From contig NZ_FZTC01000053.1 of assembly GCF_900200035.1 (NCBI RefSeq), forward strand, positions 62,001 through 126,000: a stretch of 64,000 nucleotides of DNA. The letters run 5' to 3'. The DNA is from Klebsiella grimontii. GTDB lineage: Bacteria > Pseudomonadota > Gammaproteobacteria > Enterobacterales > Enterobacteriaceae. Positions 5,917-22,375 of the stretch are shown piece after piece. A program made the position numbers and the translations under genes. Each line of letters opens with the position of its first letter. Within the stretch, counting starts at the first letter, position 1. The notes under the pieces are model-generated. The model was not told the DNA's origin. It saw only the letters and a list, made by a program, of their open reading frames with translations, and made no database searches.

Positions 5917-7011
5917 ATGCGCATACTGTTTGTTATCGACGGCCTGCCCGGCGGCGGCGCGGAAAAAGTGGTACTGACGCTGGCGGAGCATTTTCTTAGC
6001 CAGGGCGAACAGGTGTCGCTTTTTTCCCTGCGCGACATCTGCGAGTATCCGCTACCGGCGGGGCTGGATTATCAGGTCATCGCCGACCGCTGCCGCAAAC
6101 CCTGGCGCAAACTCACCGAGCTATCCCGGCGCGCGCGCCAGCTTGATACGGCAATCGAGAAAGCAGAACAGCAGGGCCGTTTCGAACTGGTGCTATCGAA
6201 TCTGCATAAAACCGACCGCATCGTCTCCCGCAGCCGCCTGCTGAACGGGCGCAACGTCTGGTTCTGCCTGCACGGCGTGTTCTCGACTTCCTATCTCGGA
6301 CACCGCAGCGGTTTTGACCGCTGGATGAAAAAGCAGAAGATCGGGCGCGTTTATCAGGGACGCAACGTCGTCACCGTCTCCGATGCGGTCGGTCAAGACC
6401 TGGTTGAGCAGTTCGCCATTCGCCCCGCCCAGCTGAAAACGATTTATAACCCGTTTGATATCGCCGCCCTGCGCGCCGCGGCTGAAGAACCCAGCCAGCG
6501 CCCCGACGGCGACTATATTATCCACGTCGGCCGCTTTCACCCCGGCAAACGTCACGACCGCCTGATTGAGGCCTATGCGCAAAGCGGCATCGACGCGCCA
6601 CTGGTGCTGCTGGGGCAGGGCAAACCGGAACAAGAACAGCGCCTGCGCCAGCTGGCGCAGCAGCTACAGGTTGCCGATCGCGTCCTGTTTAAAGGCTTCC
6701 AGAAAAACCCGCTGCCGTGGATTAAAGGCGCGCGGATGCTGGTCCTGAGCTCCGATAGCGAAGGCTTTGGCAACGTGGTGGTGGAGGCGCTGCTGCTGGA
6801 TACGCCGGTCGCCAGCACCCGCTGCCCGGGCGGCGTGACCGAGATCCTTACCGGCGAGCTGTCGCGCGGCCTGGCGGATCTCAACAGCCCGGCGCTGGCT
6901 CAGACGATGCAAAGCATTTACCATAGCCCGCCGGCCATCGACGCAGCGGCGCTGGAGAAGTTCAGCGTGGCATCGATTTGTCAGCAGTATCGTCAGCTGC
7001 GCAGCGCCTGA
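5917..7011 (+). CDS. wabH: WabH, outer-core GlcNAc transferase
   Basis: GT4-family glycosyltransferase, 364 residues. In Klebsiella WabH adds GlcNAc to the galacturonic acid placed by WabG; WabN then deacetylates it. Visible features: FVIDGLPGGGAEKVVLTLAEHF at the N-terminus (acceptor-domain glycine loop), IIHVGRFHPGKRHDRLIEAY at the start of the donor domain, and SSDSEGFGNVVVEALLLDTPVAST with the E-x7-E glutamates. Starts two bases after the wabG stop, so it is cotranscribed. The symbol rests on position and similarity. Confidence 0.85.
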   Translation: MRILFVIDGLPGGGAEKVVLTLAEHFLSQGEQVSLFSLRDICEYPLPAGLDYQVIADRCRKPWRKLTELSRRARQLDTAIEKAEQQGRFELVLSNLHKTDRIVSRSRLLNGRNVWFCLHGVFSTSYLGHRSGFDRWMKKQKIGRVYQGRNVVTVSDAVGQDLVEQFAIRPAQLKTIYNPFDIAALRAAAEEPSQRPDGDYIIHVGRFHPGKRHDRLIEAYAQSGIDAPLVLLGQGKPEQEQRLRQLAQQLQVADRVLFKGFQKNPLPWIKGARMLVLSSDSEGFGNVVVEALLLDTPVASTRCPGGVTEILTGELSRGLADLNSPALAQTMQSIYHSPPAIDAAALEKFSVASICQQYRQLRSA

Positions 7012-7040
7012 CGCCGTTATTTAACCAGGATCAATGAGTT

Positions 7041-8030
7041 ATGAGTCAAACGCCTTTACTAAGCATCGTAGCCGCCGTCTATAACGGCGAAAAATTCCTT
7101 GCGCAATTCTTTGAGTGCCTTGAGCAACAGCAGCTGGAAAGCTATGAACTGATCCTGGTGAACGACGGGTCGACGGACGGCAGCCTTGCGGTTATCGACC
7201 AGTGGAAAGAGCGCCTGCAAAACGTGATCGTGCTGGAGCAGGAAAACCAGGGCGTGTCGGTGGCGCGCAATACCGGCCTCGCCGCGGCGACCGGTAAGTA
7301 CCTGACCTTCCCGGATATCGACGATAAGCTTTACCCGGGCATGTACCGTACGCTTCTGGAAATGGCGGAAAAGGGCAATCTTGACGTCGCCACCTGCAAC
7401 GGCCGCTACGTCTACGAGACGAAAAAAGATATCCATCCCATTTTCCCGCTGGACCGGCTGCAGTCGACCGGCGTTTTGCCCGGCCACGTCTGGTTAAAGC
7501 AGGCGCTGGATTCTCGTAAGTTCCTGCACGTCACCTGGCTGAATATCTATCGCCGGGAATTTATCGCGAGCCACCGCTTCCATTTTGAGCCTGGCCTGCG
7601 TCATCAGGATATCCCCTGGACCACCGAAGTGCTGCTGGCGGCAGAACGCGTGCAGTACACCAGCGAGCAGTTCTACGATTACTATATTCACTCGGAATCG
7701 GTGTCGCATAAACCGGACAACGACGACACGCTGATGCGTTCAGCGCGCCACTACATGAAGATTCTGGAGATGCTGGACGCCATCAACCAGCGCTACCCGG
7801 ATAAGGTTCGCGATATTTCCGCCTGCCGCTGGCAGATCGCCAAAGAGGGGCTGGGAATTATTCATACCTTCGATAGCATGAAAGATGAGTCAAAAAAGCA
7901 TATTATCATTAAAGAGTTTTTCGACCGCGGCATCTGGCGCCTGATCTGGAAAAACGCCCGTACGTTCCGTCTACGCTGGCGTCTTGGACGCCGCTATCTG
8001 CGCATCAAGCGCTATCGCGACGCGGCTTAA
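7041..8030 (+). CDS. GT2-family glycosyltransferase, LPS core
   Basis: 329 residues. The N-terminal GT-A domain shows LSIVAAVYNGEKFLAQFFECL, VNDGSTDGS and FPDIDDKLYPGMY (the DxD-type metal/nucleotide site), standard for inverting family 2 enzymes. The C-terminus is strongly basic (RLRWRLGRRYLRIKRYRD), which would suit membrane association. Placed 29 bases after wabH on the same strand and before waaA, so it very likely acts on LPS core. I cannot name its sugar or acceptor; it may add a strain-variable outer-core residue. Confidence 0.8.
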   Translation: MSQTPLLSIVAAVYNGEKFLAQFFECLEQQQLESYELILVNDGSTDGSLAVIDQWKERLQNVIVLEQENQGVSVARNTGLAAATGKYLTFPDIDDKLYPGMYRTLLEMAEKGNLDVATCNGRYVYETKKDIHPIFPLDRLQSTGVLPGHVWLKQALDSRKFLHVTWLNIYRREFIASHRFHFEPGLRHQDIPWTTEVLLAAERVQYTSEQFYDYYIHSESVSHKPDNDDTLMRSARHYMKILEMLDAINQRYPDKVRDISACRWQIAKEGLGIIHTFDSMKDESKKHIIIKEFFDRGIWRLIWKNARTFRLRWRLGRRYLRIKRYRDAA

Positions 8031-8122
8031 TACTGAATCCCTTAGTTTCCGCCAAAGAGATAGCTTTACGCGGGTTAAATGCTTAGAATTTGCCCGCAAA
8101 AACATAAATACGGATAAATCGC

Positions 8123-9396
8123 TTGGAATTGCTTTATACCGCCCTACTTTACCTCATTCAGCCGCTGGTGTGGCTGCGACTGCTGTTACGCAGCCGTAAG
8201 GCCCCTGCCTATCGTAAACGCTGGAAGGAACGTTATGGCTTCTGCCAGAACAAGGTAGAACCGGGTGGCATCCTGCTGCATTCCGTTTCCGTTGGCGAAA
8301 CCCTGGCGGCTATCCCGCTGGTGCGCGCGCTACGCCACCGTTACCCCTATCTGCCGATCACCGTCACCACCATGACGCCAACCGGGTCTGAGCGCGCCAT
8401 GTCCGCTTTTGGCAAAGACGTGCATCACGTCTATCTGCCTTACGATCTGCCCGGCGCGATGAATCGCTTCTTCAATACCGTTCAGCCAAAGCTGGTTATC
8501 GTGATGGAAACCGAGCTGTGGCCGAACATGGTCGCCACACTGCACAAGCGTAAAATCCCACTGGTGATCGCTAACGCTCGTCTGTCCGAACGTTCGGCGA
8601 AAGGCTATGCCAAACTGGGTAAATTTATGCGTCGGCTGCTGAGCCGCATTACGCTTATCGCCGCGCAGAACGAAGAAGACGCTAACCGCTTTATCGCCCT
8701 TGGCCTGAAACGCAATCAGCTGGCGGTCACCGGCAGCCTGAAGTTTGATATTTCGGTCACCCCCGAGCTGGCGGCTCGCGCCATCACCCTACGCCGCCAG
8801 TGGGCGCCGCACCGCCAGGTGTGGATTGCCACCAGCACCCACGACGGCGAAGAACAAATTATTCTTCAGGCGCATAAAAAGCTGCTCGAGCGTTTCCCCA
8901 ACCTGCTGCTGATCCTCGTCCCTCGCCACCCGGAGCGCTTCGGCGACGCCCGCGAGATGGTGCAGAAAGCGGGAATGAGCTACACCCTGCGCAGTACCGG
9001 CGAAATCCCGTCGAACAGTACCCAGGTGGTGATTGGCGATACCATGGGCGAGCTGATGCTGCTGTACGGTATTGCCGACCTCGCGTTTGTCGGCGGCAGC
9101 CTGGTGGAACGCGGCGGTCATAACCCGCTGGAGCCCGCCGCTCACGCGATTCCGGTATTGATGGGCCCGCACACCTTCAACTTCAAAGATATTTGCGCCA
9201 AGCTGCAGCAGGACGACGGTCTGATTACCGTGACCGACGCCGATTCGCTGGTGACGCAGGTTTCCAACCTGCTGACCGATGAAGATTACCGTCTGTGGTA
9301 CGGCCGTCACGCGGTGGAAGTCCTGCACCAAAACCAGGGCGCCCTCTCCCGTCTGCTACAGTTACTACAACCCTACCTGCCGCAGCGGAGCCACTG

Positions 9397-9397
<1 letters not shown>
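8123..9397 (+). CDS. waaA: Kdo transferase WaaA
   Basis: Essential inner-membrane enzyme (GT30) that adds two Kdo residues from CMP-Kdo to lipid IVA. The 424-residue protein begins with a hydrophobic anchor (residues 3-22), then [19 protein letters not shown] with the catalytic Glu59, and later [27 protein letters not shown], the CMP-Kdo site. The start is TTG at 8123: no ATG is in frame nearby that keeps the conserved [13 protein letters not shown], and the ribosome site before it is weak. Its TGA overlaps the waaE ATG by one base. Confidence 0.95.
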
Positions 9398-10646
<1,249 letters not shown>

Positions 10647-10667
10647 TCCTGCGCCTTCGGGGCTCTT

Positions 10668-10701
10668 CCCGGAGGCGATGCTGCGCATCTGTCCGGGCTA
10701 C
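10668..10701. repeat. REP palindrome
   Basis: Imperfect palindrome beginning CCCGGAGGCG and ending CTGTCCGGGCTAC. Nearly the same 34-base sequence recurs at 44085-44118 and, inverted, at 56443-56478. It lies between the convergent coaD and mutM genes and may also act as a transcript end. Confidence 0.8.
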
Positions 10702-10746
10702 CGGACCAAGCGCAGCGCGAGACGGGATCAACGCAACCATCGCACC

Positions 10747-11556
10747 TTACTTCTGGCACTGGCGGCAATAAAACGTCGCCCGCTGTGCATGCTTGCTGCC
10801 GATAACCGGCGTCCCGCAAATGCGGCAGGGTTCACCTTTGCGACCATAAACCTGCAGCTCCTGGGCAAAATAGCCTGGTTTGCCGTCGCTTTGCAGGAAA
10901 TCCTTCAGCGTCGTCCCGCCCTGTTCGATGGAGCGCAGCAGGACCAGCTTAATCACTTTCACCAGCTGCTCGCACTCCTCTCGCGACAGAGAAGAGGCCA
11001 GCCTGTCGGGATGAATACCCGCCGAAAACAGCGATTCGCTGGCGTAGATATTGCCCACCCCAACCACCAGCTTGTTATCCATCAGCCAGGGCTTAATCGC
11101 GGTTTTCTTCTTCGCGCACTTCTGCTGGAGATAATCAGCGTTGAACTCATCGCTCAGCGGCTCCGGCCCCAGATGCGCCAGCGCCGGATGGCCCTCCAGC
11201 TCTTTGGTCCACAGCCAGGCGCCAAAGCGGCGCGGATCGGTATAGCGCAGGACCTTGCCGTTACTCATCACCAGGTCTACGTGATCGTGCTTCTCTGCGG
11301 GCAGCTCTTCGCTGAGGATACGCAGGCTGCCGGACATGCCGAGGTGGACGATAATCCAGCCGTCAGGCAGCTCCAGCAGCAGGTATTTGGCACGGCGGCG
11401 CACGCTGAGCACCGGAACGTCGCTCAGGCGATAGATCTCTTCGGAAACCGGCCAGCGCAGGCGTCCGTTGCGCACCACGGCGTGCAGGATGGTGGCGCCA
11501 ACCAGGTGCGGTTCAATCCCGCGGCGGCTGGTTTCTACTTCAGGTAATTCAGGCAT
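10747..11556 (-). CDS. mutM: Formamidopyrimidine-DNA glycosylase MutM (Fpg)
   Basis: Base-excision repair enzyme that removes 8-oxoguanine and related lesions and nicks the abasic site. 269 residues, full length. The mature N-terminus PELPEVET carries the catalytic Pro and Glu; [16 protein letters not shown] is the helix-two-turn-helix region; the C-terminal zinc finger is CRICGTPV ... YCRQCQK with four cysteines. The gene following on its upstream side is not rpmG as in E. coli but a four-gene operon (see 11620-16727). Confidence 0.97.
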
Positions 11557-11619
11557 ATTTTTCTCATATTAAAACAGCAGGCGCCGCTATTTTACCTCGT
11601 TCAGGAGGCCGCGACGCGA

Positions 11620-13956
11620 CTAGTGCTGAAAATTCACGCCGATGGTTATCTGCCTGCCATCGGGCTGCGGTTTGAACTTCCAGCGCCAGAGCATATCGAC
11701 CGCCCGCGCATCGTACTGTTCCACTTCGCTGCTTTTGCTCACCAGCACCAGCGTCGGCGCGCCGTTTTTATCAATATCAACGGTAAGCTCAGTCCGTTTA
11801 TCGCCCTGCATCTGCGGCGCCTTCCACTCAACGCCGAAGAAAGACGCGTTCAACACCGCATTCTTGTCGATATCAACCGTCATACTCACCGGCGGGTCAA
11901 AGGGAACGAGCGTTTCATGGCGGTCCAGCTTTTTGCTCGCCGGCAAGATTTCCCCGGCTTTTGCGGTCTCTTCACCTTTCGCTCTTTCCCCGAGGATATC
12001 AGCATAATCCGCGTACACTTTTGCCGAAAGAATCGCATTACGCTCGCCCATGCCAACCCGCATCAGTAGCTTAGTTTTGATATTCGCTATTTTCTGCTCG
12101 GTATCCTCGGCGAGTGGCTGTAGCAACAGGGAGTAGATCATTGCGCCGATGTACAGTTCAGGATCGCGCTCGGCCCACAGGCTGCCCCACCCCATCCACA
12201 CCTGCGGATCCTCCGGAGCCAGCGCCAGCAGTTGCGCCCACGTCGCCCGTTTCTCGTCAAAGGAAACATAGCTCTTTCTCAGCGCCAAATCCTTCAATAA
12301 CGGCGCATAGTAGGGATGCGTTTCGACCAGCGCTTCCATCGCCTCGGTCATTTCGGTAAAACCTTCTATTCTGCCTTTGGTCGTTTTTTCTCGTTTTTTG
12401 AAGTAGATAAGCTGTAAATTGCGCGCCTCTTCCGCGCTCAGTTTCTTCTGCGGAAAAAGCGCTTTCATCCGGGTGAATTGAGCGGCCATCTCTTGCGCGG
12501 CGGCTTCCATTCCAGGTTTATTATGCCGGGCCGCCAGCCGTGAGATACGCATCGCCCGTGATTCCATTTCCCGATAGTGTTCATTCGGAGACAGGCGATC
12601 GCTGATAAAGGTCACCGGCATCAGCAGGCGCTTTCCCTGCCGATTAGAGTGAAAACGCCACTGCGGCGCGTAGTGGAGCGCCGCTTTATCAAACTCGGGA
12701 ACGCCGCTGCTGCACTCAACCACCACGTTTAACAGCTCGCCGCTGGCGTCTGTATCCAGCGAGAGTACCGTCGTCGCCGACTTGATATATTTATTTATCG
12801 CCGGGTAGAGCATCGGCGGCACCGTCTCTTTGCCGATCCCATATCTTTCTGGCTCAATGCTGACGTGCCCCGGAAAGTGCTCGTTAACTGTGCTGATGCC
12901 ACGCACGGGGCCTTCTTTAAACACGATCGATTTCGATAAAGGCAGCACCTTGCTACCTTCGCCTTTTTCCGTTGCATACCGGTCCAATGGCAAATCACAG
13001 GAGCGCGTCTGCATTCTGGCCTGCAGAATATGTAGGATTTGCCGGTCGTCAGACGGCATTTGCGCGATATACGCCGCTAACCGCTGCTGTAGCGCAGGCT
13101 GGCGCGAGCTATCCTTCAGGCCCTCCGCCATCAATAATCCGCTCGTAATGCTTTGCGTAAGCGCCTGAAACTGCGAATTTCGCACCCGCTCATTATCGCG
13201 GGACTGGATCAGCGCTAACGCCCAACCCAGCCAGGCGTCAGAGTTTTCCGGCGCAATGGCGATTGCCTGCCGAAAGGCTCTTTCCGCCCGCGATTTGTCC
13301 GCATCCGTTGTCAGCGTCAGGATAGCCGCGGCCAGCGTCAGATCGCCACGGTCCGGCATCCAGCTGAGATAATCCGTTATTTTGGGTAATGCTTTCGCTT
13401 CTTGTTCGCGATAGCCCAGTGCCTGCTGCCAGAGCGCATCCGCGGCGGCGGCATCTTTTTCACTCCAGCCAAGCGGCAGCTCCGCTAATGGCTTTTTCTG
13501 CGCGATAAATTGCTCGACAATCTTGTGCTGATTAAACGGTTCCCCACGCAGGATTATCTGAATAAAACGGGCATGACGGTCATAGAGAAAATCCGCCCAG
13601 GCGGGCGATGCCAGCTGATTCATACTCTGCCAGCGCCGCTGGTTTTGCTCGCCAATTGGGACATTGAATAAGGTGATACCGATAACAAAAACAATCTGCG
13701 CCACGGCAGCAATCAGATAGCCTTTATTGCGCCGGGTAATCGCCACCCACATCAGGGCGGAAAAGTAGAGAGTTCCCCCTAGCCACAGGCCGTAGAGCAA
13801 TAAACGCTGGGGAGCATTCAGCGCCGCCGGTAAAAGCGAAAGCTTATCCACCAACATAAAGGGTGCAGACCAGAGAAAGAGCACCATATTCGGCGCGACA
13901 AAAAGCGCAATCAAAGACAAGATGACCAGCAGGTGTTTTAACTTCGGCGTAATCAT
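11620..13956 (-). CDS. Membrane protein with TPR-like repeats and two TonB_C-like domains
   Basis: 778 residues; I do not recognise a named family for the whole protein. It starts with three hydrophobic helices (about 8-34, 51-73, 80-98), which would put the rest in the periplasm if the N-terminus is cytoplasmic. A TPR-like segment follows near 220-250 (AERAFRQAIAIAPENSDAW). Two stretches resemble the TonB C-terminal domain: about 390-450 (LSLDTDASGELLNVVVECSSG ... WRFH) and the last 55 residues (LTVDIDKNGAPTLVLVSKSS ... WRWKFKP). No proline-rich TonB spacer is seen. The ATG directly abuts the kinase stop, so it is the last gene of the operon. Function unknown; a periplasmic sensor or effector is an inference. 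Confidence 0.8.
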   Translation of the reverse strand: MITPKLKHLLVILSLIALFVAPNMVLFLWSAPFMLVDKLSLLPAALNAPQRLLLYGLWLGGTLYFSALMWVAITRRNKGYLIAAVAQIVFVIGITLFNVPIGEQNQRRWQSMNQLASPAWADFLYDRHARFIQIILRGEPFNQHKIVEQFIAQKKPLAELPLGWSEKDAAAADALWQQALGYREQEAKALPKITDYLSWMPDRGDLTLAAAILTLTTDADKSRAERAFRQAIAIAPENSDAWLGWALALIQSRDNERVRNSQFQALTQSITSGLLMAEGLKDSSRQPALQQRLAAYIAQMPSDDRQILHILQARMQTRSCDLPLDRYATEKGEGSKVLPLSKSIVFKEGPVRGISTVNEHFPGHVSIEPERYGIGKETVPPMLYPAINKYIKSATTVLSLDTDASGELLNVVVECSSGVPEFDKAALHYAPQWRFHSNRQGKRLLMPVTFISDRLSPNEHYREMESRAMRISRLAARHNKPGMEAAAQEMAAQFTRMKALFPQKKLSAEEARNLQLIYFKKREKTTKGRIEGFTEMTEAMEALVETHPYYAPLLKDLALRKSYVSFDEKRATWAQLLALAPEDPQVWMGWGSLWAERDPELYIGAMIYSLLLQPLAEDTEQKIANIKTKLLMRVGMGERNAILSAKVYADYADILGERAKGEETAKAGEILPASKKLDRHETLVPFDPPVSMTVDIDKNAVLNASFFGVEWKAPQMQGDKRTELTVDIDKNGAPTLVLVSKSSEVEQYDARAVDMLWRWKFKPQPDGRQITIGVNFQH

Positions 13957-15330
13957 TTATGGCTTACTCCGAAGAATCGCCAGCAGCCCCATCACGGCTA
14001 TCCAGACAAAAATCAGGATTAACGCCGCATTATCGTACCAGGCATGCCAGGGACCGCTCAGTTGGGTAAAATTACGCGCTAATATGGCCATCACCAGCGT
14101 GCTAATCACAGCCAGCGCGCCATGCCAAACAAATGCAGGAACTTTGCTGCGCATATTGCGCCACAGCAGCGTTAACGGCCCCGGCCCAGTTGGCTGACGA
14201 GGTACCGCAGCGGCTGGCGCCACGCGAGGCTGCCGCTTTGCGGGCGCAGGCTTTGGACTAACGGTTTGTGTCCGCTTATGCTGCTTCGCCTGTTTTACGC
14301 CCTCAACAACCTGTTTTTCACGTGCGCAGACCAGGCACGGCATCCCGGCGAAATGCTGGTGTTTCTTACTACAGAGAACAATTTTTTGCGTACTGCGTAG
14401 CGCATAAGGACGCAGGATCTTCGCCCATTCATCGGCGGAAGGACGTTGGGCAGGCGAATCGCTAAAGGCGCGATCGAATAGCTTGCGTAGCCCAGCGGGC
14501 AGCAGGTGATGGGTACTGGCCGGTACCGGAGAGATATTCTTTGCGGCATTGATGCCGTAGGCGTAGCAACCGGCGGCGATGCGACCGGGTAAATCATCAG
14601 GCACTTTTGCCGCCTGCGCGCGGCCGCTATAGGGATGAATGCCGTGGTTGAGCAACTGGAAAATAATCACCGCCAGCGAGAAGCGGTCCTGAGCCTCTTC
14701 CTGTTCGCCCGGCACCTGGCCAATGCGCTGGAACTCAGGCGCCAGGTAATCCGGCGTGAACTGCCCGGCCGGGAAACGCTCGCCCTCGCCCTGGATGCTA
14801 AAGCCATCGCAGTCAAGCAGCGCGATGTACAGGCTGTCGCGATAAAAACGCAGGTTGACCGGCTTCATGTCGATAACCCGGTGCTGGCGCGCGTGTAACG
14901 CCGAGACCAGGGTGGCGAGGTTGCAGGCCAGGCTCACTTTGGCGCCAATCCCCTCCGGCAGATTCTGCGCCTTCGCCTGCCGCGACTGCAAAATATACTC
15001 CAGCTCAATAGTGCGCCGGGTATCGAGCACCGGCATAACAAAGCCAATAACCCGCTTGCGCTCGTCGAAGAGCAAATAGTCAGGCCACGCCAGTTGGACG
15101 ATCGCTTCACCGTCAGCAGGCGCGGGGATTTCCGGGCGCTGCGCAAGCATGGCGCTAAGCTTGCGCTGGTAATAGCCGGTATCGATATTGGGATGATAGA
15201 TTTTCGCGACGCGGGAAGGGTCATCCGCCAGAAAATAGACGCTGCCAGCGCCGCCGCTCTTAATCAGTTTTCCCAGGCGTACCGCGCGACGTTGCTCGTT
15301 ATAACACCCAGGGGCTTTTTTATGCTTCAT
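13957..15330 (-). CDS. Membrane-anchored Hanks-type Ser/Thr kinase (TerY-P/YegI-like)
   Basis: 457 residues. Kinase motifs look intact: glycine loop SGGAGSVY (25-32), VAK with Lys43, catalytic loop RVIDMKPVN with Asp154, Lys156 and Asn159, metal site LLDCDGF with Asp175, LAPE at 196-199, and Asp215 of helix F. After the kinase come a Cys/His cluster (Cys320, His324, Cys332, Cys335, probably zinc), a Lys/Pro-rich linker and two C-terminal membrane helices (about 400-418 and 434-453), so the kinase faces the cytoplasm. Its start overlaps the PP2C gene by 11 bases. The set kinase + PP2C + vWA matches the TerY-P triad and E. coli YegI/YegK/YegL. Substrate unknown. Confidence 0.88.
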   Translation of the reverse strand: MKHKKAPGCYNEQRRAVRLGKLIKSGGAGSVYFLADDPSRVAKIYHPNIDTGYYQRKLSAMLAQRPEIPAPADGEAIVQLAWPDYLLFDERKRVIGFVMPVLDTRRTIELEYILQSRQAKAQNLPEGIGAKVSLACNLATLVSALHARQHRVIDMKPVNLRFYRDSLYIALLDCDGFSIQGEGERFPAGQFTPDYLAPEFQRIGQVPGEQEEAQDRFSLAVIIFQLLNHGIHPYSGRAQAAKVPDDLPGRIAAGCYAYGINAAKNISPVPASTHHLLPAGLRKLFDRAFSDSPAQRPSADEWAKILRPYALRSTQKIVLCSKKHQHFAGMPCLVCAREKQVVEGVKQAKQHKRTQTVSPKPAPAKRQPRVAPAAAVPRQPTGPGPLTLLWRNMRSKVPAFVWHGALAVISTLVMAILARNFTQLSGPWHAWYDNAALILIFVWIAVMGLLAILRSKP

Positions 15331-16045
15331 TACGCAGAGCTACCAGAAGCGTCTTATCATCGCCGGTTATCGCCCAGGTGCGCGGGTCGTCAAGCGTGGC
15401 GCGTATCGCCTCACTCCCTTCAACCTCAGAGACCTGCAGCAAATAACGCAAAACAGGGTCCATAAAGGGGGAGAATAGCGCATCGCCGCGCTGGTTTAGC
15501 GCAAACGGCTGCACGCCGTCGGACATCATCACCAGTTGCGTGGCTCTGCCAGCAAACTGACGGATGCGTAAATGTTCGCGCCAGTCGTGGCTGGTGAGAA
15601 ACCAGGTCTGGTTGGCGTATTCACCGTTTTCAGGTAACGAGAAGTGCTGCTCAGCGTCGATGCTCAACTCCGCGACGCCATCACCGATATGCAGCACCAC
15701 TGAGGCGGTTTCCCCGAGCCATGCGGCCACAACGGTACAGGCAAAATCGCCTGCGGAAAGCCCTCGCTCCTGCGCCGCCAGCAGAACGACCTCACGCACG
15801 CTCGCTATCAGCGTCGCCAGCTGCTGTTCATCAGGCGCGGCGGTGAATTTCGCCAGCCGTTCGGCCAGCTCTCGGGCGACTAAAACCGCACCCTGTTCGC
15901 TATAAGCGGCTGAGCCTGCGCCGTCGCATACGGCGGCGACCAGACGATCGCCCAAATTGCGGTAGCAAAAGGCATCCTGACAAGGAAGGTTATTTTGTCG
16001 GTGGCTGCTGCCAATGACCGACGAAGCGTAAACGCGCCAGTTCAT
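15320..16045 (-). CDS. PP2C-family Ser/Thr phosphatase
   Basis: 241 residues; expected to dephosphorylate targets of the adjacent kinase. Metal-binding aspartates of the PP2C fold are visible: CQDAF (Asp24), VCDGAGSAAYSEQGA (Asp41), HIGDGVAEL (Asp122), MMSDGV (Asp176) and GDDKTLLVAL (Asp229/Asp230). All core motifs are kept, so it should be active. Starts four bases after the vWA gene stop and overlaps the kinase start. Compared with E. coli YegK it has the same gene-order role between vWA and kinase. Confidence 0.9.
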   Translation of the reverse strand: MNWRVYASSVIGSSHRQNNLPCQDAFCYRNLGDRLVAAVCDGAGSAAYSEQGAVLVARELAERLAKFTAAPDEQQLATLIASVREVVLLAAQERGLSAGDFACTVVAAWLGETASVVLHIGDGVAELSIDAEQHFSLPENGEYANQTWFLTSHDWREHLRIRQFAGRATQLVMMSDGVQPFALNQRGDALFSPFMDPVLRYLLQVSEVEGSEAIRATLDDPRTWAITGDDKTLLVALRNEA

Positions 16046-16049
16046 CGCG

Positions 16050-16727
16050 TCAGACCGAAATTTCTGACCAGCTATCCGTCGGCGGCAGCTGTGCTCTACC
16101 GCCAGGGGTAGACTGCGAAACTACCTGCATGCTGGCGCTCAGCCAGAGGAACAGCTCGCGGAACTGCAAACCTTTTAGCTGCTTCACGCCGTTTATACCG
16201 CTACGGCTGAAGTGACCCATCGATTCGGAAGCCTCGCTACCCACGCTAATCGGGAATACGGCAACCTTATTCGCCGCCTGCGCCTCGCGGCACTCCTGGG
16301 CCGCCGTCTGCCAGTTATCCGTTGGCGCGCCGTCCGACATCAAAAACAGCCATGGCCGGGTATAGGGTACGCCAGCTGCTTTCAGGCGCTGCTTTTCAGC
16401 TTCAATTTCACTTAACGCCATGCTGACGGCCTGCCCGGTAGGCGTTAAGCCGTTGGCTTCAAGAACAGGTGCGGTGAAATCCATCGCATCGCACCAGTCG
16501 CCGTACAGCTGACACTCGTCGTAACCGCCATATTTAATCACCAGCAGGCGAACGCGTTTGGCGGCTATCACATCATGCTTGAGTTCTTCTTCCAGCAGCT
16601 TGAGCCCCTGATTTAGCTGGGCGATTGGCTGGCCGTCCATGCTGCCTGAGCAGTCAAGGACTAAAATCAAAGGCGTACGCTGTTCACTATTATCGATAAA
16701 TGAAACATCCGGAATTAAAGACGTCAT
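16050..16727 (-). CDS. vWA-domain protein (TerY/YegL-like)
   Basis: 225 residues, one von Willebrand A domain. The MIDAS metal site is complete: DCSGSMDG (Asp25, Ser27, Ser29), LTPTGQA (Thr95/Thr97 region) and MSDGAPTD (Asp132). No signal peptide, so cytoplasmic. The ATG at 16727 has AGGGA seven bases upstream; an in-frame start further upstream would add a Cys/Arg-rich stretch and is less likely. First gene of the operon vWA-PP2C-kinase-TonB_C protein. The terminator of rpmBG lies upstream, so this operon has its own promoter. No other ter genes (terZABCDE) are in the window. Confidence 0.9.
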   Translation of the reverse strand: MTSLIPDVSFIDNSEQRTPLILVLDCSGSMDGQPIAQLNQGLKLLEEELKHDVIAAKRVRLLVIKYGGYDECQLYGDWCDAMDFTAPVLEANGLTPTGQAVSMALSEIEAEKQRLKAAGVPYTRPWLFLMSDGAPTDNWQTAAQECREAQAANKVAVFPISVGSEASESMGHFSRSGINGVKQLKGLQFRELFLWLSASMQVVSQSTPGGRAQLPPTDSWSEISV

Positions 16728-16758
16728 AACAATCCCTGTCGGTGGTTTTCTGTACCGG

Positions 16759-16787
16759 CAGGATAAACACCCCATGCTGGTAAGACA
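16759..16787 (-). promoter_or_regulatory. Candidate promoter of the vWA-PP2C-kinase operon
   Basis: On the minus strand TTGTCT, a 17-base spacer and TATCCT lie about 32 bases before the vWA ATG. Boxes are 4/6 and 4/6 with ideal spacing. A second weak TTGATA-containing candidate overlaps the Fur-like box further upstream. Confidence 0.4.
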
Positions 16788-16810
16788 AGAAAAACCAATT
16801 CATTCATATG

Positions 16811-16829
16811 GTTAATGATTATCAATAAA
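16811..16829. promoter_or_regulatory. Fur-box-like sequence
   Basis: The 19 bases starting GTTAATGATTATCAATAA match 14 of 19 positions of the enteric Fur consensus by eye. The core is TGATTATCA. It lies about 85-100 bases upstream of the vWA ATG in an A+T-rich gap. Direct binding is untested. Confidence 0.5.
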
Positions 16830-16880
16830 AAAGAAGAGCGGGATATATTTCGGAGGCAGGATGAGTGTAAAGCGAAAACA

Positions 16881-16906
16881 AAAAACCCCGCCGGGGCGGG
16901 GTTTTT
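16881..16906 (-). terminator. Terminator of rpmB-rpmG
   Basis: Minus-strand reading gives CCCCGCC / GGCGGGG arms flanked by A and T runs, starting 20 bases after the rpmG stop. It isolates the ribosomal operon from the vWA operon downstream. Confidence 0.9.
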
Positions 16907-16925
16907 CTGTACAAGGAGTCTAAAA

Positions 16926-17096
<171 letters not shown>

Positions 17097-17113
17097 TTAT
17101 TTCCTCTAAGTAC

Positions 17114-17371
<258 letters not shown>

Positions 17372-17495
17372 TTAGCTCGAGCTTCGTATGGGGTATTGGC
17401 GCCTCGTCAGGCTTTACAGCCCGGTCATCGCAGTTCTAAGCGAACTCTCGATTGCCAGGCCCAAATGCCAAACCCGAGATTCTCAAAGGTGGCGT

Positions 17496-17524
17496 AGTAT
17501 ACGCTGACTCGGCGATGTGCTCAA
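17496..17524 (-). promoter_or_regulatory. Promoter of rpmB-rpmG
   Basis: On the minus strand TTGAGC (17524-17519), exactly 17 bases, then TATACT (17501-17496). Near-consensus boxes with ideal spacing, as expected for a ribosomal protein operon. Confidence 0.75.
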
Positions 17525-17566
17525 GTCCCGAACAGACAAAGATCCCGATGGATCGCGCGATCGGGG

Positions 17567-18232
17567 CTAAATCCAGCCGCGTTCAGCGAAAGATACGTAC
17601 GCTCCGCGGCCAATGACAAGGTGATCCAGCACACGTATATCCATGAATCGACAACATTTTATCACTCTTTCGGTAATCAGCCTGTCGGCCTTGCTCGGCT
17701 CAGGACTACCGGATGGATGATTATGTGCCAGGATCACCGCGGCGGCGTTCACTTTGATGGCTTCGCGTACGATTTCTCGCGGATGCACCTCAACGTGGCT
17801 AAGAGTACCAGAAAAAAGTCGGCTATGTTTCAATACCCGATTCTGATTGTCTAAAAAGATCACCATGAAGATCTCGCGCTCTTCGTCGGCCAGCTGGCTT
17901 TGCAGAAATTCTCGCGTCATCGATGGGGTAACCAGCGAGGGTTCTTCGGTCATTCGCAGACTAAAATAGCGTCGCGCCAGTTCAGCGATCCCTTTTAGCT
18001 GCGCATATTTCGCCAGGCCAATGCCTTCCACCTCGGCAAACTGCGACTCCTCCGCCGATAACAGGCCGTACAGCGAGCCAAAACGCTGCAGCAACTCGCG
18101 CGAAAACGTCATCACATCCTGCGTGCGGGTACCGGTACGTAAAAATAGCGCCAACAGTTCAATATCCGACAAAACTTCGATACCGTAGCGCTGCATCTTT
18201 TCCCTCGGCATCAGGGATTCTTGTATTTCCAT
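17567..18232 (-). CDS. radC: RadC/UPF0758 family JAMM protein
   Basis: 221 residues. An N-terminal helix-hairpin-helix region ([21 protein letters not shown]) is followed by a JAB1/MPN metalloprotease-like domain with [14 protein letters not shown] and the metal motif [14 protein letters not shown]. Historically linked to DNA repair, but the E. coli radC102 phenotype was later traced to recG, so its role is unsettled. Divergent from coaBC. A weak hairpin (CCCGAT/ATCGGG arms) follows the stop. Confidence 0.93.
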
Positions 18233-18404
18233 CGCGGCCTCTCCTTCCTACTCCGCGCTATCCTGGCACAGCCTTTTTGCGCCGCCGATACGCAAGTTTT
18301 ATCCCTGCGTGGCGCCTCGCAAAGTGAATCTCTACCAGGCACACGATGCCGTGAGGATTGTGATAAGATGCGCGAATTCTGGTGTACCGCAACAGGAAAA
18401 AATC

Positions 18405-19619
18405 ATGATGAGTCTGGCTGGTAAAAAGATCGTTCTTGGCGTGAGCGGCGGCATTGCCGCCTATAAAACGCCAGAACTGGTGCGCCGCCTGCGTGACCGC
18501 GGCGCGGATGTCCGCGTCGCCATGACGGAAGCCGCAAAAGCCTTCATTACGCCGTTAAGCTTACAGGCGGTGTCCGGTTATCCGGTATCCGACAGCCTGC
18601 TCGACCCGGCCGCCGAAGCGGCGATGGGCCATATTGAGCTGGGGAAATGGGCTGATCTGGTCATTCTTGCCCCCGCCACCGCCGACTTAATCGCCCGCAT
18701 CGCGGCAGGCATGGCCAACGATCTCGTCTCGACGATCTGTCTCGCTACGCCGTCACCGGTCGCCGTCGTGCCCGCCATGAACCAGCAGATGTATCGCGCC
18801 GCCGCCACCCAGCATAATCTTGGCGTCATCGCCGCCCGCGGCCTGCTGGTATGGGGCCCGGACAGCGGCAGCCAGGCCTGCGGCGATATTGGCCCAGGGC
18901 GGATGCTCGACCCGCTGACCATTGTGGATATGGCCGCGCAGCATTTCTCTCCTGTCAAAGATTTGCAACATCTGAACATCATGATTACCGCGGGCCCCAC
19001 CCGCGAGCCGCTGGATCCGGTGCGTTATATAACCAACCACAGTTCTGGTAAGATGGGCTTCGCGATTGCCGCCGCCGCCGCGCGTCGCGGTGCGAACGTT
19101 ACGCTGGTGAGCGGCCCGGTTTCGCTGCCTACGCCGCCGTTTGTACACAGAATTGATGTCACCACAGCGCTGGAAATGGAAGCCGCGGTGCAAAATAGCG
19201 CGTCTCAACAGCAGATTTTTATTGGCTGTGCGGCAGTCGCCGACTACCGTGCGGTCGCCATCGCCGAAGAAAAAATTAAAAAACAAGGTGATGAATTAAC
19301 CCTGAAAATGGTTAAAAATCCGGATATCGTCGCAGGGGTCGCTGCGCTTAAGGCCAACCGCCCTTACGTCGTTGGGTTTGCCGCCGAAACAAATAATGTG
19401 GAAGAATACGCACGGCAAAAGCGAGCCCGCAAAAATCTTGATCTGATTTGCGCCAATGATGTTTCACAGCCAAATCAAGGATTTAACAGCGACAGCAATG
19501 CATTACACCTTTTCTGGCAGGAGGGAGATAAGCGCTTACCACTTGAGCGCAAGGAACTCCTGGGCCAATTATTACTCGACGAGATCGTTACCCGTTATGA
19601 TGAAAAAAATCGACGTTAA
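18405..19619 (+). CDS. coaBC: CoaBC bifunctional pantothenate pathway enzyme (Dfp)
   Basis: 404 residues. The N-terminal FMN-dependent CoaC domain (phosphopantothenoylcysteine decarboxylase) shows [19 protein letters not shown], the PAMNQQMYR active region and GDIGPGRML. The C-terminal CoaB domain (phosphopantothenate-cysteine ligase, CTP-dependent) shows [20 protein letters not shown] and [10 protein letters not shown] at 18405 has AGGA seven bases upstream; the ATG at 18408 is an equal alternative that differs by one Met. The 3' end overlaps dut by 23 bases. Confidence 0.96.
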
Positions 19620-20055
19620 GATTCTGGACCCGCGCGTTGGTCAGCAATTTCCGCTGCCGACCTATGCCACCTCCGGCTCCGCCGGACTTGACCTGCGAGC
19701 CTGTCTCGATGACGCCGTAGAGCTGGCTCCCGGCGCAACCACTCTCGTGCCGACCGGCCTGGCGATTCATATTGCCGATCCTTCTCTGGCCGCGGTCATT
19801 CTCCCGCGCTCCGGGCTGGGCCATAAGCACGGTGTCGTACTGGGTAATCTGGTCGGTTTGATTGATTCTGACTATCAGGGCCAGTTGATGGTTTCCGTCT
19901 GGAACCGCAGCCAGCAGAGCTTCATCATCGAACCCGGCGAGCGTATCGCGCAAATGGTGTTTGTGCCTGTTGTGCAGGCGGAATTTAACCTGGTGGAAGA
20001 TTTTGACGCCACCGATCGCGGCGAAGGCGGCTTCGGTCACTCAGGGCGTCAATAA
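19597..20055 (+). CDS. dut: dUTPase
   Basis: Hydrolyses dUTP to dUMP and pyrophosphate, keeping uracil out of DNA and feeding dTMP synthesis. 152 residues from the first of two adjacent ATGs. All five trimeric dUTPase motifs are visible, including [40 protein letters not shown] and the C-terminal arm [14 protein letters not shown]. It overlaps the end of coaBC, as in E. coli. Confidence 0.97.
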
Positions 20056-20230
20056 GCCCGGCGATAGAAAAAATCTTTCGGGGCGTCGCCGACAAAAGGG
20101 CAGCCTGAAGGATGAAGTGGAACCAGCATCGCAAAGCGCACTAATGCAATAACATCACCGCAGGCCACAGCTTGCGGTCGCTTTGTGGGTGCCTGCCTGA
20201 CAAGTGCTTTTTTCAGGGGTATTTTAAAAC

Positions 20231-20827
20231 ATGGCAGAAAAACAAACTGCGAAAAGGAATCGTCGCGAAGAAATACTTCAATCTCTGGCGCTAATGCTTG
20301 AATCCAGCGATGGGAGTCAGCGCATTACCACAGCGAAACTGGCGGCGTCCGTTGGCGTATCCGAAGCGGCTCTGTATCGGCATTTCCCGAGCAAGACCCG
20401 CATGTTTGATAGCCTGATTGAATTTATTGAAGACAGCCTGATTACGCGCATCAATTTGATTTTAAAAGATGAAAAAGACACCTCAGCGCGCCTGCGGCTG
20501 ATTGTTCTGTTGATTCTTGGGTTTGGCGAGCGTAATCCTGGGCTGACACGAATTCTGACCGGCCATGCGCTGATGTTTGAACAGGACCGGCTTCAGGGCC
20601 GTATCAATCAGCTGTTCGAGCGTATTGAAGTTCAGCTGCGTCAGGTGATGCGGGAAAAGAAAATGCGCGAAGGCGAAGGCTTTACCGTCGATGAGGCCCT
20701 GCTGGCCAGCCAGCTATTGGCCTTCTGCGAAGGGATGCTGTCGCGCTTTGTGCGCAGCGAGTTTAAATATCGCCCGACGGACGATTTTGACGCCCGCTGG
20801 CCGCTGGTCGCCGCCCAGCTGAAGTAA
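20231..20827 (+). CDS. slmA: Nucleoid occlusion factor SlmA
   Basis: TetR-family DNA-binding protein, 198 residues, that binds chromosomal sites and blocks FtsZ assembly over the nucleoid. The N-terminal helix-turn-helix is [31 protein letters not shown] (about 33-63). It follows dut after 175 bases that hold no gene. A stable hairpin follows it. Confidence 0.96.
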
Positions 20828-20842
20828 TTATCGCCTGTCTCT

Positions 20843-20863
20843 ATGCAGCCAGAAAGGCTGCAT
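20843..20863 (+). terminator. Hairpin after slmA
   Basis: Perfect 8-base arms ATGCAGCC / GGCTGCAT with an AGAAA loop, 15 bases after the slmA stop. No T run follows, so it may be an RNA-stabilising hairpin rather than an intrinsic terminator. Confidence 0.5.
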
Positions 20864-20927
20864 CTCTTCCCACAGGAACTTTATCCGCGTTGATATCCTG
20901 CAGCTCTTAGCGTAGCGGCTTAAATCA

Positions 20928-20945
20928 GCCCGGCGCCTGCCGGGC
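20928..20945 (-). terminator. Hairpin after pyrE
   Basis: Arms GCCCGGC / GCCGGGC with a four-base loop just past the pyrE stop; on the minus strand it is followed by TGATTTAA, a weak U tract. Confidence 0.55.
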
Positions 20946-20951
20946 CGCGGT

Positions 20952-21593
20952 TTATACGCCGTACGCTTCGCGATAGGCGCGAACTGACGCCAGGTGTTCA
21001 GCCATTTCCGGCTTCTCTTCCAGATAGCTAATCAGGTCTTTCAGCGTCACGATGGAAATCACTTTACAGCCGTAGTCGCGCTCAACTTCCTGAATCGCGG
21101 AGATTTCGCCGCGCCCGCGCTCCTGACGGTCAAGAGAAATCAGCACGCCGGCCAGCTCCGCGCCGTTGGCCTGGATAATTTCCATCGATTCCCGAATCGC
21201 GGTGCCTGCGGTGATAACATCATCCACCAGCATCACGCGGCCCTGCAGAGCGCTTCCCACCAGATTTCCGCCCTCGCCGTGGGTTTTCGCCTCTTTACGG
21301 TTAAAGCAGTAAGGCAGATCGCGGTCATGGTGTTCCGCCAGCGCGACCGCCGTGGTCGTGGCAATCGGAATACCTTTGTAGGCCGGGCCGAACAGCAGGT
21401 CAAAATCAATCCCGGAATCCACCAGCGCTTCGGCGTAAAAACGGCCTAACAGAGCCAGATCGCGCCCGGTATTAAACAGGCCGGCGTTGAAGAAATAGGG
21501 GCTCTTGCGCCCGGATTTCAGCGTAAACTCGCCAAACTTAAGTACCTGCTTGTTAAGCGCAAACTCAATAAACTGGCGCTGATACGGTTTCAT
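20952..21593 (-). CDS. pyrE: Orotate phosphoribosyltransferase PyrE
   Basis: Converts orotate and PRPP to OMP in pyrimidine synthesis. 213 residues from the ATG at 21593 ([13 protein letters not shown]); a start five codons upstream gives a non-conserved tail. PRPP loop [17 protein letters not shown] and the substrate segment [11 protein letters not shown] are present. Cotranscribed with rph; expression depends on the attenuator just upstream. Confidence 0.97.
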
Positions 21594-21624
21594 GGATTCG
21601 CTCCTCATCTTACTTTTCTACGGA

Positions 21625-21653
21625 CAAAAAAAAGGCGACTTCTCAGTCGCCTT
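21625..21653 (-). terminator. pyrE attenuator
   Basis: Between rph and pyrE. On the minus strand AAGGCGACT, loop GAGA, AGTCGCCTT and a run of eight T. In E. coli an equivalent element couples pyrE transcription to UTP supply through translation of the end of rph; here the rph stop is six bases before the hairpin, the same geometry. Confidence 0.88.
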
Positions 21654-21658
21654 AAAAA

Positions 21659-22375
21659 CTAGTTTTGCAACGCCGCTTTCTGCGTCGTGACAATGGATTC
21701 GATACCCCCCCGGGCCAGTGCCAGCAGGGTGAGGAGTTCTTCATGAGTGAACGGCTCGCCTTCCGCCGTTCCCTGCACCTCGATGATGCGACCATCTTCG
21801 GTCATCACCACGTTCATATCGGTTTCCGCCGCGGAATCCTCAACGTATTCCAGATCGCAAATCGCTTCGCCATTCACGATGCCTACGGAGACCGCCGCCA
21901 CCATCCCTTTCATCGGGTTGGTTTTCAGCTTACCGGCCGCAACCAGCTTATTGAGCGCATCGGCCAGCGCCACGCAGGCTCCGGTTATCGATGCGGTGCG
22001 GGTGCCGCCGTCGGCCTGCAGTACGTCGCAGTCCAGCGTGATAGTGAATTCACCCAGCGCTTTCAGGTCAACTGCAGCGCGCAGTGCGCGCGCGATCAGG
22101 CGCTGGATTTCCATGGTGCGCCCGCCCTGCTTACCTTTTGCGGCTTCACGCGCGTTGCGAGTGTGGGTAGAACGCGGCAGCATGCCGTATTCCGCGGTGA
22201 TCCACCCCTGGCCCTGGCCTTTCAGAAAGCGCGGCACGCCTTCATCAATAGAAGCGGTGCACAATACTTTCGTGTCACCAAATTCGACCAGCACGGAGCC
22301 TTCTGCGTGTTTTGTGTAGTTACGGGTCAGGGTTACTGGGCGCACTTGATTAGCGCTACGGCCTGCTGGACGCAT
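21659..22375 (-). CDS. rph: RNase PH
   Basis: Phosphate-dependent 3'-5' exoribonuclease that trims tRNA precursors. 238 residues, intact, unlike the frameshifted copy of E. coli K-12. ATG at 22375 begins [20 protein letters not shown]. Features: [20 protein letters not shown], the phosphate/active site [17 protein letters not shown] and [20 protein letters not shown]. Its C-terminal codons also serve as the leader for the pyrE attenuator. Confidence 0.96.

Follow-up and report, generated by a model that had tools for sequence, protein, structure and literature searches.

Between rpmG and mutM in the stretch of Klebsiella grimontii DNA analysed here (64,000 nucleotides; hereafter the window), four minus-strand open reading frames, all of them open, run from 16727 to 11620 and encode a vWA protein, a PP2C-family phosphatase, a Ser/Thr kinase and a 778-residue membrane protein (Table 1). 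The first three recall the TerY-P triad and the E. coli Yeg proteins. This raises the question whether the fourth gene is a genuine partner of the other three and, if so, what its product might contribute to a phosphosignalling module.

Table 1. The four-gene operon and its features (positions in the window)
Feature	Position	Strand	Evidence
vWA protein, 225 aa, first gene	16050..16727	minus	Pfam VWA 32.7 bits (cut-off 23.8)
PP2C-family Ser/Thr phosphatase, 241 aa	15320..16045	minus	Pfam PP2C_2 149.5 bits (cut-off 24)
Ser/Thr kinase, 457 aa, with CHCC motif and two C-terminal TM helices beyond the kinase domain	13957..15330	minus	catalytic residues, hydropathy
Fourth protein, 778 aa: N-terminal membrane region and two tandem TPR-TonB_C units, probably periplasmic	11620..13956	minus	Pfam, hydropathy, hhalign
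Zinc-ribbon-like CHCC motif of kinase, residues 320-335	14326..14373	minus	kept in 24/24 aligned kinases
Two kinase TM helices and short loop between, residues 399-453	13972..14136	minus	hydropathy scan
Membrane region of fourth protein, residues 2-99, three helices inferred	13660..13953	minus	hydropathy, homologue scan
First TPR-TonB_C unit, residues 115-455; TonB_C at 12631-12780	12592..13614	minus	TonB_C 26.6 bits; hhalign
Second TPR-TonB_C unit, residues 456-778; TonB_C at 11635-11796	11623..12591	minus	TonB_C 31.9 bits; hhalign
Likely operon promoter TTGTCT-17-TATCCT	16760..16788	minus	8/12 consensus matches
Terminator after rpmG, between rpmG and operon	16880..16907	minus	terminator scan

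The genes are packed as tightly as a preliminary description of this DNA had it: a 4-base gap separates the vWA and PP2C genes, the PP2C and kinase genes overlap by 11 bases, the kinase and fourth genes abut, and mutM (11556) lies 63 bases beyond the fourth gene. The likely promoter, which with its 8 of 12 matches falls below the threshold of the promoter scan and is therefore absent from the scan output, recurs as TTGTCT-17-TAT[CT]CT in the upstream regions of all seven Klebsiella copies. A stem-loop similar to the rpmG terminator is also found 3′ of rpmG in Klebsiella spacers without the operon. Control by Fur was considered and rejected. Scored against the Fur-box consensus, positions 16811-16829, upstream of the operon, match at 15 of 19 in this genome, a value reached by 0 of 200 shuffles. 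The six other Klebsiella upstream regions score no more than 11 or 12 of 19, values that 23 to 136 of 200 shuffles attain, and the ten further regions 10 to 13.

In the vWA protein, which scores above the Pfam cut-off, D25, S27, S29, T95 and D132 are invariant in all six aligned homologues and, by our own assignment, would form the MIDAS motif DxSxS...T...D that had been claimed for it. The PP2C likewise appears intact, with D24, D41-G42, D176 and D229-D230, its likely metal-binding residues, invariant in 6/6. For the kinase, Pfam Pkinase gives no match in the window's protein even at E 1; a profile of quartet kinases matches a Deinococcus kinase at 142 bits, and the latter passes the Pkinase cut-off (40.1 vs 31.7). 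K43, D154, K156, N159 and D173 are kept in 17/17 aligned quartet kinases. The zinc-ribbon-like motif suggested by C320, H324, C332 and C335 is present in all 17 and, with YegI included, in every one of the 24 kinases aligned. Two TM helices (399-417 and 435-453 by hydropathy scan) complete the intact, membrane-anchored kinase initially described, whose C-terminus comes a few residues past the last helix, in a short tail ending in Pro.

Is the fourth gene a real partner? Every searched genome in which the fourth protein matched at full length, 29 in all, encodes it beside the kinase (for 17 of these, Proteus genomes, the kinase and fourth gene only, checked by coordinates). The order vWA-PP2C-kinase-fourth gene is identical in 22 of 22 distinct loci, one of them cut by a contig end, which places the four genes together beyond chance and, with the 29 genomes, identifies the fourth as a real partner. 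Distances in the fourth-protein tree track those in the kinase tree (r 0.98, 17 rows); the correlation reflects mostly shared descent and indicates that the partner has not been swapped. All four genes are under purifying selection, with median dN/dS across seven Klebsiella genomes of 0.047 (vWA), 0.15 (PP2C), 0.12 (kinase) and 0.20 (fourth gene), ratios that are rough given the high dS (medians 0.4-0.7). The fourth protein is the fastest-changing of the four, with 23-28% identity between genera.

We then asked what kind of protein it is. TonB_C scores 50.9 bits over two stretches (Pfam cut-off 24.6); each passes the cut-off singly in a six-frame search, and TonB_C is found in 18/18 homologues, in line with the two domains originally noted. 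TPR matches stay below the Pfam cut-offs. What had been overlooked is that the large region following the membrane helices consists of two copies of a TPR-TonB_C unit, arisen by duplication (hhalign of unit 1 vs unit 2, profile E 2e-29). Among solved structures, the profile of the fourth protein recovers the TonB chains 9ddz and 9dc4 (E 1e-7). The TonB energy transducer has a single N-terminal TM segment with an SxxxH motif for contact with ExbB/D. The fourth protein, in contrast, has more than one membrane segment, TPR-like helices and a duplicated unit; SxxxH is absent from the first 40 residues in 18/18 homologues, and no exbB or exbD was recognised by eye beside the quartets. As judged from these sequence features, it is not an energised TonB.

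Its topology, predicted from hydropathy, is most likely one of three membrane helices followed by periplasmic TPR-TonB_C units. In the window's protein the scan recognises two segments, 2-31 and 81-99; the helix expected in the middle is seen in 14 of 18 homologues though not in this one, and were it absent the TonB_C units would be cytoplasmic. Across homologues 2 to 5 segments are called, some overlapping, and the Entomohabitans proteins have an additional N-terminal one. The predicted cytoplasmic parts comprise a short N-terminus and, preceding the last helix, an Arg/Lys-containing loop, in which the 18-homologue alignment has no Ser/Thr at one kept place, making the fourth protein a poor candidate substrate for the kinase.

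Taken together, we consider it probable that the quartet is a four-component transmembrane phosphosignalling system, a TerY-P/Yeg-like triad with its own envelope sensor. The fourth protein would sit in the inner membrane, its two periplasmic TPR-TonB_C units binding a periplasmic or outer-membrane protein or product, and would control through membrane helices a kinase that itself has only a short loop outside. The kinase would phosphorylate itself and cytoplasmic targets, the PP2C would reset the pathway, and the vWA protein may act as a metal-dependent adaptor joining kinase, phosphatase and target. We infer that a signal crosses the membrane, and the same holds for its direction and identity.

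The wider kinase family gives a clue to the division of labour. In a tree of 34 kinases, the quartet kinases form one clade (17/17 rows, SH-aLRT 100); for this tree and that of the fourth protein the method was a 'quick' one with long branches flagged, and 17 of the 22 distinct quartet loci were included. The kinases of L048, L049 and L107 were omitted from the kinase tree. Two relatives outside the quartets carry a recognised domain beyond the TM segment, FGE-sulfatase in G575 and Big_5 and FG-GAP in G246. The pattern is not uniform across the seven non-quartet members of the wider group, whose placement carries long-branch warnings: a third kinase (L113) has a TM segment followed by about 200 residues without a Pfam name, L116 has four TM segments, L098 a TM segment and short tail, and L101 and L114 none by hydropathy scan. 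Neither G575 nor G246 has a vWA or PP2C gene adjoining the kinase, and the G246 kinase has lost catalytic residues. Since these two relatives bear such a domain on the kinase itself, the fourth protein most likely stands in for it, providing an ectodomain in the form of an independent subunit. What the preliminary description proposed as a link through two membrane proteins is thereby refined to a kinase with a separate periplasmic sensor subunit.

The fourth protein might instead be the output, a periplasmic TonB_C protein that the kinase module switches and that binds TonB-dependent transporters or envelope proteins, for example shutting uptake of phages, bacteriocins or siderophores. In TonB the TonB_C fold binds outer-membrane transporters, and the two TonB_C domains, the solved TonB chains recovered and a divergence such as a part facing hostile partners might show all fit this reading. 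Even so, we regard it as unlikely: the protein offers the kinase almost no predicted cytoplasmic part to modify, it lacks the marks of an energised TonB, and the domain beyond the membrane on the kinase in two relatives favours input over output.

Returning to the sensor-equipped triad, how does it relate to known systems? YegI is described as a membrane-bound, autophosphorylating Ser/Thr kinase that is dephosphorylated by PphC (PMC13232886). The likeness to YegL-PphC(YegK)-YegI pointed out earlier is borne out by homology of the vWA, PP2C and membrane kinase (184, 131 and 125 bits, respectively, with quartet profiles), and YegI too has the CHCC motif and, beyond its kinase domain, hydrophobic segments. 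The quartet kinases are nevertheless a clade apart from the YegI group (SH-aLRT 99 for the split in the same tree). YegI has N, S and S at quartet positions K156, N159 and G176, and its membrane segments are followed by a long tail, absent from the quartet kinases, in which HhH matches weakly (20.1 bits; cut-off 27). The annotated E. coli Yeg locus contains no TonB_C gene, and a search of E. coli genomes with the DNA of the kinase and fourth gene gave no match. TerY-P, according to PMC11090510, combines a TerY-like vWA, a PP2C and a Ser/Thr kinase with a zinc-ribbon-like tail, a composition that the quartet parallels with its PP2C, its kinase with the CHCC motif and a vWA protein above the Pfam VWA cut-off, and occurs in ter-associated, CoCoNuT-associated or stand-alone TerY-P-like modules. 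The quartet differs in its membrane-anchored kinase, its dedicated fourth subunit and the lack of ter genes nearby. The TerD genes of the host genome lie on another contig (C48), within 14,275 bases of which no vWA, PP2C or kinase match was found, so the operon does stand away from ter genes as first described. A literature search over titles and abstract openings, with subscription journals largely outside its scope, found no paper on the four-gene set.

Copies of the operon occur at about five chromosomal places, in some Klebsiella and Proteus and in bacteria related to them. Occupation of the rpmG-mutM site in 7 of 20 Klebsiella genomes, the other 13 having no operon and 97-219 bases between the two genes, agrees with the insertion proposed at the outset; in the seven carriers about 200 bases separate rpmG from the vWA gene downstream of it, and the fourth gene is followed by mutM. 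The operon is nearly fixed in Proteus (18/20 genomes) and patchy in the family (6/246 genomes). The contig scan used two peptide patterns built from quartet kinases and is hence biased towards close kin. Carriage by plasmids or phages was rejected: a search of 72,556 plasmid records gave nothing for the fourth protein, the kinase has 56 plasmid matches, all distant (best listed, 40% identity), and its one phage-labelled match is in a 'Bacteriophage sp.' contig of unverified identity.

TerY-P has been reported active against phages (PMC7699616, PMC10889362), and the same three catalytic parts, a patchy distribution and the several chromosomal places could point to stand-alone phage defence of this type with a membrane-bound extra component. 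An HNH_2 endonuclease is moreover the next gene upstream at a Serratia locus (L132), and a similar HNH_2-like ORF lies further upstream at L033, with an RHS element between. We nonetheless judge defence improbable, given the retention in Proteus and the single site in all seven Klebsiella carriers. The other scanned neighbours are not mobile or defence genes (RecR, CstA, fimbrial, WG-repeat, DmsC, molybdoenzyme, TreR, carbamoyltransferase and quorum-sensing proteins), the remaining ones being judged by eye. In PADLOC (E 0.1), the vWA and fourth proteins had no match and the kinase and phosphatase weak ones; the library includes a TerY model, matched at 16 bits by an Azospirillum relative.

Could the fourth gene have a life of its own? 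Among 369 genomes of the class, its profile matched in 62 in addition to the genome of the window, each time over a short stretch at or near the TonB_C columns; of the matches listed, with at most two candidates scored per genome, none outside the own genome covered more than 152 of 818 profile columns. A single-sequence search of the same genomes, again scoring at most two candidates in each, returned the own genome and one 68-residue match. None of five short-match loci examined has a kinase, PP2C or vWA match, and two (L119 and L122), inspected by eye, resemble ordinary TonB genes, their neighbours being ExbB/ExbD-like. Independent existence was rejected on these searches. That an independent TonB-family or TPR protein was grouped here by chance, as the commonness of TonB_C proteins of other architecture might suggest, is very hard to sustain, since the full-length protein was seen only beside the kinase, in 29 of 29 searched genomes and at about five places. 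The four-part system stands on both points that could have told against it: the fourth gene was not found full-length apart from the kinase in the genomes searched, and TonB_C persists in profile searches.

A precedent for the mode of working is the H1-T6SS of P. aeruginosa, in which the inner-membrane kinase PpkA is opposed by PppA, which deactivates the pathway, and served by separate envelope proteins, TagQRST, with TagQ and PpkA required for the response to outer-membrane damage, according to PMC11881912. The likeness is one of arrangement (inner-membrane kinase, phosphatase, envelope proteins); we see no evidence of homology as a system, and no T6SS, Fha or Tag genes were recognised by eye among the window ORFs or neighbouring loci; near one Serratia locus there is an RHS protein that matches PAAR weakly. 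The quartet may be a split receptor kinase, in which the ectodomain borne by the kinase in some relatives has become a separate protein, and this duplicated TPR-TonB_C receptor reads TonB-dependent transporters or the state of the outer membrane and signals to a Hanks-type kinase, PP2C and vWA protein, a more specific proposal that we put forward only tentatively.

With canonical catalytic residues and a large membrane protein of its own, the quartet offers a handle on the input of such kinases. If the TonB_C units bind outer-membrane transporters, cytoplasmic phosphorylation would be tied to the route taken by siderophores, bacteriocins and many phages. A split receptor kinase, if that is what the quartet is, would give enteric bacteria a Ser/Thr counterpart to the sensing of envelope stress by two-component systems.

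Between rpmG and mutM, the window carries four genes head to tail on the minus strand, as tightly packed as the preliminary description had claimed, with its gap, overlap and abutting ends all found. This quartet is a real, conserved four-part system.

Genes of the quartet in the window, in order of transcription
Gene	Position	Strand	Basis and remark
vWA gene	16050-16727	-	ORF reading; first of four
PP2C gene	15320-16045	-	ORF reading; 4-base gap after vWA
Kinase gene	13957-15330	-	ORF reading; 11-base overlap with PP2C
Fourth gene, 778 residues	11620-13956	-	ORF reading; abuts kinase

The proposed partnership of the fourth gene with the other three is borne out by its distribution, since the kinase gene adjoins it in all 29 distinct searched genomes that carry it. 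Within the family, the fourth protein as query gave matches in 6/246 genomes, and the kinase as query gave 10 matches, the strong ones in the same six genomes. The four weaker kinase matches (93.2 bits or less) comprise three in YegI-like triads and one in a more distant vWA-PP2C-kinase set, L048:1733-8125, where three vWA-like genes, a PP2C-like gene and a kinase-like gene form one run. The quartet occurs in 7 of the 20 Klebsiella genomes searched; in Proteus, the kinase gene is present in 18/20 genomes and the fourth gene in exactly those 18, with about 20 bases between the two according to the coordinates listed; and in the genus of Serratia silvae both kinase-positive genomes (2/7) have the full quartet. 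All four genes stand in order at 15/15 loci of named genomes, counting a MAG locus (L032) whose fourth gene is cut by the contig end, and gene order is identical in 22/22 distinct loci read (named plus further loci, five shared contigs counted once). Outside the family, no second full-length fourth protein was found in 369 genomes of the class, at most two candidates being scored per genome. In one Proteus genome (G641:C1:779526-783368), a stop lies inside the fourth gene and its last part follows about 1.3 kb further, so that this copy is probably interrupted.

By sequence, the genes of the catalytic parts appear to be functional. The Pfam match of the vWA protein lies above the cut-off, and that of the PP2C reaches 149.5 bits (cut-off 24); the putative metal-site residues of both (our assignment) are invariant in six aligned homologues each. 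Pfam Pkinase does not match the window's kinase even at E 1; the quartet kinase profile, in turn, matches a Deinococcus kinase with 142 bits, which itself exceeds the Pkinase cut-off (40.1 bits). The glycine loop, K43, D154, K156, N159 and D173 are kept in 17/17 aligned quartet kinases, and past the kinase domain a C-H-C-C set is kept in 24/24 aligned kinases, E. coli YegI included, in support of the zinc-ribbon-like tail proposed earlier. A hydropathy scan called two transmembrane helices with a short loop at the C-terminal end. The earlier account of a MIDAS vWA protein, an intact phosphatase and an intact kinase with two membrane helices agrees with these data.

As to the fourth protein, its two proposed TonB_C-like domains held up in profile searches: two stretches exceed the cut-off in a six-frame search, 18/18 homologues have a Pfam match, and the protein's profile finds TonB chains 9ddz and 9dc4 in the PDB (E 1e-7). 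The TPR-like domains fared less evenly, as their matches stay below the Pfam cut-offs, although the profile does find designed TPR chains in the PDB. In the hydrophobic N-terminal region, the scan called segments at residues 2-31 and 81-99 of the window's copy, and a middle segment between them in 14/18 homologues, the window's copy not being one of these. An Arg/Lys-containing loop precedes the last helix; given three helices and this loop inside, the positive-inside rule would place the remaining ~680 residues in the periplasm. New here is that the part past the membrane region is one unit, duplicated: residues 115-455 and 456-778 match each other at E 2e-29 over 302 columns in profile comparison, the helical parts alone at E 1e-11 and the TonB_C parts at E 1.5e-22, and 20/20 column-shuffled controls gave E 0.13 or worse. 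In Entomohabitans teleogrylli (L028:7791-12888), the whole fourth gene is present in two divergent tandem copies.

The kinases of 17 tested quartets form one clade (support 100), nested in a larger kinase group, which is split from the YegI group (support 99). The main division of the fourth-protein tree is similar to that of the kinase tree, and fourth-protein distances track kinase distances (r 0.98), being about 3.4 times longer. Median dN/dS among seven Klebsiella genomes (21 pairs) is 0.047 for vWA, 0.15 for PP2C, 0.12 for the kinase and 0.20 for the fourth gene (mutM, 0.018); hence all four genes are maintained by selection, the fourth changing fastest on this measure. A terminator predicted 3′ of rpmG, before the quartet, and a promoter-like TTGTCT-17-TAT[CT]CT upstream in 7/7 Klebsiella regions suggest that the quartet has its own transcript. 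An Rfam search of window 6000-22000 gave no match. Upstream of the operon lies a Fur box match (15/19; window 16811-16829), not kept in other Klebsiella genomes.

Insertion between mutM and rpmG, as first described, is evident from the 13/20 Klebsiella genomes in which 97-219 bases separate these genes (minus-strand distances worked out from coordinates), the other 7/20 having the quartet there. In Proteus its neighbours are recR on one side and a cstA-family gene on the other; in Providencia the quartet adjoins fimbrial genes, with the same cstA-family gene close by. In Entomohabitans it is flanked by treR and a carbamoyltransferase gene, and in Enterobacillus by a molybdoenzyme operon and a quorum-sensing pair; in Serratia it is found near an HNH_2 endonuclease gene. 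The fourth gene of Providencia is closely followed by an ORF of 150 residues (L034:13980-14432), whose WG-repeat match lies at the cut-off. Downstream of the Enterobacillus quartet come genes for an acyl-homoserine-lactone synthase and then a LuxR-type protein (L042:14170-15567), and a LuxR-type regulator gene is next downstream at both Serratia loci (L033:13961-14698 and, short, L132:9371-9757); none was recognised by eye at other loci. The HNH_2 gene is directly upstream of one Serratia quartet (L132:2891-3823), and at the other an RHS element separates the quartet from a similar ORF (L033:248-1183). The patchy spread, the several chromosomal places and the HNH_2 neighbour would fit a reading of the quartet as a defence system, against which stand its near fixation in Proteus and single site in Klebsiella.

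As noted earlier, the first three genes match known triads: they are homologous to YegL-PphC-YegI of E. coli, and resemble TerY-P as defined in PMC11090510. YegI is reported to be membrane-bound and autophosphorylating and to be dephosphorylated by PphC (PMC13232886), and antiphage activity is reported for TerY-P (PMC7699616, PMC10889362). What sets the quartet apart is its membrane subunit, the separate clade of its kinases and the absence of ter genes from its surroundings. The genome's own ter cluster (L131:8504-14275), with five TerD-family matches, lies on another contig without any vWA, PP2C or kinase of the quartet type, in keeping with the placement first reported. PADLOC gave no match for the vWA and fourth proteins and weak matches only for kinase and PP2C. 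A vWA-PP2C-kinase triad also occurs at L116:4519-7422 on MT836238.1, an unverified GenBank 'Bacteriophage sp.' entry that may be a bacterial contig. The listings of the literature searched contained no description of the four-gene quartet.

Among seven non-quartet kinases of the wider group, two have a domain with a Pfam name beyond the transmembrane helix: FGE-sulfatase in one (G575; L099:4225-6273) and a Big_5 plus FG-GAP match in the other (G246; L100:7945-10950), neither with a vWA or PP2C gene beside it. In the latter, catalytic positions are no longer conserved: D173 is replaced by G, K156 by T and N159 by H. The Azospirillum kinase (L113) has a transmembrane segment and ~200 more residues without a Pfam name, L116 four transmembrane segments and L098 a short tail; in L101 and L114 the scan called no transmembrane segment. 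In the kinase-like L101 protein (L101:6851-7957), D154, K156, N159 and D173 are all replaced, so that it is apparently a pseudokinase. Since these kinases differ beyond the kinase domain, the ectodomain pattern supports a sensor role of the fourth protein in a suggestive, not uniform, manner.

In the proposed arrangement, the quartet kinase would have only a short loop outside, where the fourth protein would supply the large part; with three helices, the latter would have almost no cytoplasmic part for the kinase to modify. Together with the ectodomain pattern, these features make the fourth protein more likely an input than an output. The nearest working analogue is TagQRST-PpkA-PppA of P. 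aeruginosa, whose envelope proteins and inner-membrane kinase react to outer-membrane damage (PMC11881912). We consider a sensor role of the fourth protein the best reading, and a somewhat probable one.
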